64,000 nucleotides of DNA from Engelhardtia mirabilis. GTDB lineage: Bacteria; Planctomycetota; UBA1135; GCA-002686595. The stretch is taken from NCBI GenBank assembly GCA_007751255.1, contig CP036296.1:1612001-1676000 (forward strand). Reading direction: 5' to 3'. Shown one piece after another: positions 48,129 through 53,744 of the stretch. Positions within the stretch are counted from its first letter, which is position 1. Each line of letters starts with the position of its first letter. The position numbers were made by a program, and so were the translations under genes. Below the pieces are notes generated by a model. That model saw only the letters and a list, made by a program, of their open reading frames with translations. It did not search any database and was not told the origin of the DNA.

Positions 48129-50972
<2,844 letters not shown>

Positions 50973-53052: not shown

Positions 53053-53571
53053 ATGCGAAACCCTCTGATCGTCCTAGGCGCGATGCTGGTCGCATCCTGC
53101 GCCGCCCTGAGCACTGGCCACTCCAAGGAGCTGGTCTACGTCGTCGAAGCCACCGGCGGCGCCTGAAGCGCTGGAGTCAAGGCCCGTGCGGCCATGAACA
53201 GCGTCGAAGGCATCGATCGACTCCACATGAGCGGCGCCCGCGCCGTCTTCGTCCTCGAACCCGGGAGCGACCTGGACCAGGCGGCCATCGCTGCCGCCTT
53301 CGAGGACCGCGGCATGCAGCTCGAGTCCCTGGAGTACGTCCAACGACCGCGGGCGCGCGGGGTCGTGACGGTCGACACCGGAGTGACATGAGCGGTCACC
53401 GCTGGCAAGGTCCGTGCGGCCTTGATGAACGAAACCGGTGCGATCGACGTCTACTTCGAGGATCAGATCGAGATCCTCGTGGCCAACCCCGATGACTTCT
53501 CCGTGGACGCGGTCCGCGAGGTGCTGACCGCGAACGAGATCGAGTTCAGCGAGGTCAAGACGGCGGGCTGA
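53053..53571 (+). CDS. Candidate lipoprotein with two HMA-like domains and two selenocysteines (in-frame TGA)
   Basis: A 173-codon frame with TGA at codons 38 (53164) and 113 (53389) and a terminal TGA at 53569. Residues 1-16 are a lipoprotein signal (lipobox VASC, C16). Two related domains follow. Domain 1 reads VVEATGGA-U38-SAGVKARAAMNSVEGIDRL. Domain 2 reads VVTVDTGVT-U113-AVTAGKVRAALMNETGAIDVYF. Both resemble heavy-metal-associated/MerP domains (GMTC..C....V..A......G......), with Sec near the second metal-binding Cys and no Cys left in the mature part. Each TGA is followed by a hairpin with the same CGUGC loop, and a strong terminator lies 30 nt after the third TGA. Reading it as a pseudogene is possible but would need two TGA mutations at equivalent sites. 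Metal or thiol binding at the cell surface is inferred. Confidence 0.65.
53178..53196 (+). promoter_or_regulatory. Putative bacterial SECIS hairpin 1
   Basis: CAAGGCC-CGUGC-GGCCAUG: a 7-pair stem with one A-A mismatch, starting 12 nt after the TGA at 53164-53166, with the loop at +19 to +23. Bacterial SECIS elements lie in this range downstream of UGA and expose a G in the loop. Confidence 0.5.
53406..53424 (+). promoter_or_regulatory. Putative bacterial SECIS hairpin 2
   Basis: CAAGGUC-CGUGC-GGCCUUG: a 7-pair stem with one G-U pair, starting 15 nt after the TGA at 53389-53391, with the loop at +22 to +26. The loop is identical to hairpin 1 and the stem differs by pair-conserving changes. 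Confidence 0.5.
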
Positions 53572-53601
53572 GAGCCGACGGGGCTCGAGTTCGCACCAGA
53601 G

Positions 53602-53630
53602 GGAGCGGCGGTGCTTGGCGCCGCCGCTCC
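53602..53630 (+). terminator. Terminator hairpin after the candidate selenoprotein gene
   Basis: GGAGCGGCGG-TGCTTGGCG-CCGCCGCTCC, a perfect 10-bp stem followed by TTCTC. It lies 30 nt after the third TGA (53571), marking that as the real gene end. Confidence 0.8.
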
Positions 53631-53744
53631 TTCTCGATCAGGGGCGAACTGCGGGCGGCGGACGCCGGATCCGAAGTCGGTGGAGCTGGCTTCCGAGCGT
53701 CGCCTGCGGGCGGGCCGATGTCCTTGGGGTTAACCTGCATCCCA

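Follow-up and report, generated by a model that had tools for sequence, protein, structure and literature searches.

The two-ligand motif of HMA domains is GMxCxxC, and the domains of CopA, ATP7B, CopZ, Ccc2a and ZntA all use it with two cysteines. MerP is also an HMA protein. Selenocysteine (Sec, U) in a domain of this kind therefore appears to have been reported already, since a MerP row stands in the table of selenoproteins from the Global Ocean Sampling set (figures 2, 1 and 0; PMC2398784); the MerP passage in that source, compared by its table row, is silent on two domains or two Sec. A 2026 review (PMC13188914) contains several near entries, namely NF041115 (UxxU), NF045648 MbdU, a Sec-containing MerT and a Sec cation ATPase. 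Its Table 1 gives NF041115 as a putative mercuric reductase with the motif UxxU and 2 Sec, and MbdU, credited to Haft and Tolstoy 2025, as a metal-binding double selenoprotein with the Sec motif CU. Few of the selenoprotein families listed there hold more than one Sec.

The family that we describe here resembles each of these and coincides with none of those compared. Like NF041115 (UxxU_metal_bind), it would consist of small HMA-type metal-binding selenoproteins with two Sec, but in NF041115 both lie in one domain as UxxU, whereas here there is one Sec per domain and no UxxU. MbdU, by its name, shares metal binding and two Sec and differs in its Sec motif. NF045683, a MerT/CopZ fusion-like heavy metal transport selenoprotein, has by its name a Sec in an HMA/CopZ-like domain, as does our family, together with a MerT part that our family lacks. 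Our protein gave no match at E 1 to NF041115, MbdU or MerP (TIGR02052, cut-off 92.55 bits) and no match to NF045683; nine other members gave none to MbdU at E 0.01. Among the relatives, L022, L027 and L029 score 17.5, 18.7 and 55.1 bits against NF041115, all below its cut-off of 95 bits, and L029 reaches 56 bits against NF045683 (cut-off 375 bits) and 46.5 bits against MerP. Scans of 13 members with NCBIfam and Pfam do not place the family among the families listed, at most 25 in number. By names and motifs, a family of tandem HMA proteins with a single Sec in each domain is absent from the 119 families in Table 1 of PMC13188914; the literature comparison also covered PMC9312934, PMC1088965, PMC4807772 and PMC12013277 by word matching. 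No title on such a family stood among the papers listed, and a description in Haft and Tolstoy 2025 is possible. It is uncommon for a new selenoprotein family to come with strong comparative evidence.

The gene lies on the forward strand at 53053-53571 of the window, by which we mean the whole 64,000-nucleotide stretch of the Engelhardtia mirabilis genome (G000; 6.95 Mb in 2 contigs) that was analysed. With TGA read as Sec, the frame, which contains neither TAA nor TAG, translates into 172 residues followed by a terminal TGA (53569-53571), and the read-through protein begins MRNPLIVLGAMLVASC. The two internal TGA codons, at 53164-53166 and 53389-53391, correspond in the translation and in the alignment of homologues to Sec38 and Sec113. 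A preliminary description of this DNA had reported one frame with two TGA codons, no TAA or TAG and a third TGA at its end, and it was correct in both coordinates and wording. Standard annotation would presumably end the gene at codon 38. The first 16 codons (53053-53100) encode a putative signal peptide, predicted by motif only, that ends in LVASC, which we take to be lipobox-like; its C16, the single cysteine of the read-through protein, aligns with a cysteine in the nearest relatives. Because that cysteine stands at the end of the signal peptide, the mature protein would have no free thiol, as the preliminary description had also noted. That description had further placed a strong terminator after the third TGA. 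There is a very stable, terminator-like hairpin at 53598-53634 on the same strand (-35.2 kcal/mol, z -6.2), but it has no clear T run, and a terminator scan that requires one found no terminator 3' of the gene.

In the predicted model the protein folds as two copies of a six-element domain, beta-alpha-beta-beta-alpha-beta, comprising residues 25-99 (53125-53349) and 103-171 (53359-53565), and U38 and U113 each lie in the loop before the first helix, where HMA domains (PF00403) have their ligand loop. This agrees with the earlier view that the TGAs occupy equivalent sites of two homologous domains. The best fold matches of the predicted single domains are metal carriers: in the model the domain fold resembles that of the single HMA chaperones CopZ, Ccc2a and the ZntA N-terminus, and CopA (1p6t) and ATP7B (2rop, 7si3) share with it both the fold and the tandem arrangement. 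The relative placing of the two domains differs from that in the tandem HMAs, so that only single domains match well and whole-length overlap is poor (TM 0.31, rmsd 14). In contrast to all of these proteins, each domain here has one Sec and no second cysteine or Sec in its loop, and GMxCxxC is absent; with the second Cys of CxxC missing, a single domain lacks the classic two-ligand site.

Sequence-level support for the HMA relationship is uneven. Pfam gave no match to the window protein, although the relatives L027 and L029 exceed the PF00403 cut-off of 24.8 bits (28.4 and 84.8 bits), and NCBIfam returned two chance-level rows only (E 0.022 and 0.036). A first PDB sequence search found CopA at E 1.5e-6 with an alignment that held the HMA-scoring rows L027 and L029; when these two were removed and four others added, the best PDB match was MerP at E 0.1. 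We therefore rely on the predicted fold and on profile-profile comparison with tandem HMA relatives (98.8%). Taken on these grounds, the HMA-like reading of the preliminary description holds for fold and profiles and finds no echo in Pfam or NCBIfam, and a tandem HMA-like fold is very probable.

The Sec machinery, whose presence the preliminary description had left to be sought, is complete in G000: a tRNA-Sec (70 bits, above the cut-off, with ARAGORN in agreement), SelB (313 bits), SelA (461 bits) and SelD (318 bits), the gene for the last adjoining selA and containing one TGA of its own. Sec is used by nearly the whole lineage. Since tRNA-Sec was found in 138 of the 154 genomes of the class, its presence in 28 of the 30 genomes with two-domain genes (the other two being 72% and 64% complete) does not discriminate. 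The TGA of selD (L034) is early and in frame, at 1531-1533, and by eye a CGCA-GGUCU-UGCG hairpin follows it, with its loop 33 nt past the TGA.

A bacterial SECIS is a hairpin directly downstream of the UGA, at a set distance, with G (and U) in its loop. Candidates that fit this rule follow both TGAs: GGCC-CGUGC-GGCC at 53181-53193 (loop 53185-53189), 18-30 nt from the T of the first TGA, and CAAGGUC-CGUGC-GGCCUUG at 53406-53424 (loop 53413-53417), 18-36 nt from the T of the second. In the family each TGA is likewise followed by a hairpin with a covarying stem and mostly the loop CGUG[CA], which mostly starts at 22 (site 1) or 25 (site 2) counted from that T, and the four loop-adjacent pairs form in 30 of 30 class genes at each site. 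The comparison was widened to 103 Sec sites, made up of 60 from the 30 class genes, 17 from 12 other class loci and 26 from 14 phylum loci (L103-L116); dropping the terminal TGA of L109 and removing two duplicates left 101. CGTG occurs at +16 to +40 in 89 of these 101 distinct sites, distant two-TGA and single-TGA relatives included, and by eye several of the 12 sites without it have a different loop, with GG or GGU. The pairing statistics refer to the 89, using the best-paired CGTG where a site offered several. Stems there averaged 6.06 pairs, whereas 72 other CGTG occurrences in the 30 class genes averaged 0.65; the six inner pairs formed in 500 of 534 cells, against at most 434 in shuffles; and in alignment A2 (32 sites) 93.2% of cells paired, against 53.1% or less with the partner slid. 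Hairpin energy by itself is unremarkable in the window (z -1.73 at site 1, -0.91 at site 2), with only a mild excess. In the class genes CGT encodes 59 of the 60 loop arginines, as opposed to 12 of the 202 arginines elsewhere, so that the RNA seems to dictate the near-invariant arginine of each domain. Two RNA elements in one short mRNA would in this way fix residues of the protein.

Homologues that span both TGAs are numerous. Fifteen of 61 near genomes match the read-through protein, and the best 13 of the matching rows (the window and 12 other genera) have exactly two TGA each. At E 1e-3, 40 of the 154 class genomes match the family profile; 30 of these hold genes covering both domains (31 genes, E 1.5e-26 or better), two TGA being the only stops in every one, and four further class genomes (G140, G136, G133 and G139) have more distant two-TGA members. 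In the phylum, 57 of 392 sampled genomes match, with two-TGA homologues in other classes among them. The named homologue loci are MAGs, several of them labelled Planctomycetota (L118, L120, L122, L125), and a pattern-based search of named genomes with the window protein found no relative. In a MAFFT alignment with U entered as C, all 42 two-domain sequences, drawn from 41 genomes, have U in both Sec columns, as do 46 of 46 once four UxxxC tandems (L063, L107, L108 and L112) are added. The 42 comprise a first set of 39, plus L109, L113, L114 and L142, which have the same layout and had been omitted from it, minus L063; outside both alignments are L143 (a UxxxC tandem), L110, L111, L115 and L116 (other layouts), one-TGA rows and L100. 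The other columns conserved at 90% or more among the 39 are one Gly, two Arg and two Leu. The two-domain homologues that were read carry two TGAs only, so that the other stops or frameshifts that the preliminary description had named as evidence against its reading did not appear in them. TAA or TAG is listed for the weak phylum rows G160, G210, G320 and one of G401, and an L032 row of the near-genome search overruns the TAG stop of a one-Sec gene. L100 (G090:C73) is a cut third gene copy whose start is identical to that of L099 and whose frame breaks within the first domain.

Selection on the protein appears to continue past both codons. Between the TGAs and after the second, dN/dS is 0 to 0.12 in seven close pairs, which fall within genera g65 and g22 and hence are not independent; in the short stretch before the first TGA it rises to 0.85 in the same pairs. 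Values of 0.10 to 0.88 between and after the TGAs in seven more distant pairs, where dS is high, we read as saturation, and both pairs with the window gene as a member (0.37 to 0.88) are probably saturated.

Cysteine at the U positions, which the preliminary description had proposed to look for, was not seen in any close homologue. The best matches without a stop have E 6e-9 in the 154 class genomes (all four such rows read) and 2.2e-7 in the 392 phylum genomes (8 of 30 such rows read), and all of those read were distant or ordinary HMA proteins. Distant HMA relatives do have Cys at the Sec place. One of them, L091 (G078:C673), has GMSC and comes from an 81% complete genome in which tRNA-Sec was not found; a change from Sec to Cys is possible there.

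When the domains are placed separately in a tree, built from 26 of the 30 class genes (after removal of four near copies) and three single-Sec domains, 25 first domains group together (support 91/95), as do 25 second domains (98/90). The tandem duplication therefore looks old, with both Sec sites apparently kept since. The two domains of L063 (= L029), which has UxxxC in both, group with each other instead (99/79); we thus regard it as the product of a separate duplication and, while it is one of the 30 class genes in our counts, as a cousin instead of an orthologue.

The reading frame, the two conserved UGAs, the hairpins and the machinery support the earlier interpretation as a selenoprotein with two Sec, and from these sequence data Sec is almost certainly inserted at both UGA sites. 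As a whole, the explanation that we favour, and hold to be reasonably likely, is that the gene encodes an exported lipoprotein built of two HMA-like domains in tandem, in which SelA, SelB, SelD and tRNA-Sec would decode each internal UGA by means of its own downstream hairpin. Each domain would then offer one selenolate where HMA domains have their first metal-binding Cys, with no other thiol in the mature protein, and the two selenolates would most likely hold one soft ion, Hg(II), Cu(I), Ag(I) or methylmercury, bridging either from one domain to the other or from one molecule to a second. The lipoprotein could in this manner scavenge soft metals at the cell envelope or hand them over. Because of the fold, the position of Sec and the absence of other thiols, we consider soft-metal binding to be probably the main role. 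If so, selenolate by itself would stand in for thiolate in the capture of soft metals by a natural protein, and it could be tested directly why cells use Sec for metal binding.

As each domain lacks a second ligand and gene context gives no guidance, some room is left for a redox role, in which the two Sec would form a diselenide or catalyse sequential peroxidase or thiol exchange reactions on an HMA-shaped scaffold. The pair of Sec without any other thiol and their joint retention since the apparently old duplication would suit this, and most uncharacterised selenoproteins are considered likely to be redox proteins (PMC13188914). A frame that we take by eye to be catalase-peroxidase-like is located some 2.5 kb upstream, on the opposite strand (48129-50534), but it is not common to the neighbourhoods of relatives in 21 regions, nor did greedy frame calling reveal any conserved gene neighbour in them. 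The best fold matches of the predicted domains, moreover, are metal carriers, and the protein has no CxxU or UxxC motif. We judge a redox role unlikely, though it is the strongest of the alternatives to soft-metal binding. An operon context was rejected: nothing was common to at least three regions save proteins of one genus, common repeat-type or kinase-like proteins and the shadow of the gene itself on the opposite strand. The catalase-peroxidase-like frame has a lipobox-like N-terminus, LLIAAC, and would be an exported form.

An envelope reservoir or carrier of selenium or Sec, for which the Sec content itself would be the point, is improbable: the four TGA of an HMA protein from another class (L139) would fit it, but there are just two Sec per molecule in the window protein, and in the 46 aligned sequences Sec is confined to the two ligand positions. 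Low-level readthrough of UGA with another residue (Trp or Cys), or a changed code, without any Sec being made, is less probable still, given the full machinery and the hairpin that follows each UGA, whose stem covaries and whose loop is nearly fixed. The terminal stops of the 30 class genes are TGA in 14, TAG in 13 and TAA in 3, and TGA also terminates the catalase-peroxidase-like and kinase-like frames of the window, so that a changed genetic code was rejected. A chance open frame or a pseudogene, as the end of the frame at codon 38 under the standard code and the many long spurious frames of this GC-rich DNA might suggest, is ruled out for practical purposes by the 42 of 42 two-domain sequences that share these two stops and have none besides, and by the low dN/dS across both TGAs in close pairs.

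Small HMA proteins with Sec also occur in the genomes of the family. From its 81 genomes we took 24 candidates with an HMA match starting at profile position 9 or later and a frame of at most 100 codons, picked because they were cut there; in all 22 that were read (L149-L167, L032, L095 and L102) a TGA stands at the first Cys place, with the motifs GMTUxxxC, PUGGC or GLHUGxWC, and most have a lipobox-like start. Sec-HMA lipoproteins would therefore be common in these genomes. More tentatively, and with less confidence than we attach to soft-metal binding by the window protein itself, one may envisage a selenium-based soft-metal system of the Planctomycetota envelope, in which Sec occupies the first ligand place across a whole radiation of HMA lipoproteins that hold one, two or four Sec. 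The tandem two-Sec family would be its endpoint, a thiol-free clamp of two selenolates on one ion (Hg(II), methylmercury or Cu(I)) whose near-invariant arginine in each domain is dictated by the need for the SECIS loop to read CGU.

The window genome itself contains a second Sec-HMA lipoprotein (G000:C1, about 509894-510205; L102:1363-1674), with the motif PUGGC and a CGUGC-loop hairpin after its TGA. In another class of the phylum, L139:252-956 is a predicted HMA tandem with four TGA, UxxxU in each domain. Further arrangements among HMA-like relatives are adjacent UU in L110, UxxxU in L116, L159 and the first gene of L138, and UxxU in L151 and the second gene of L138.
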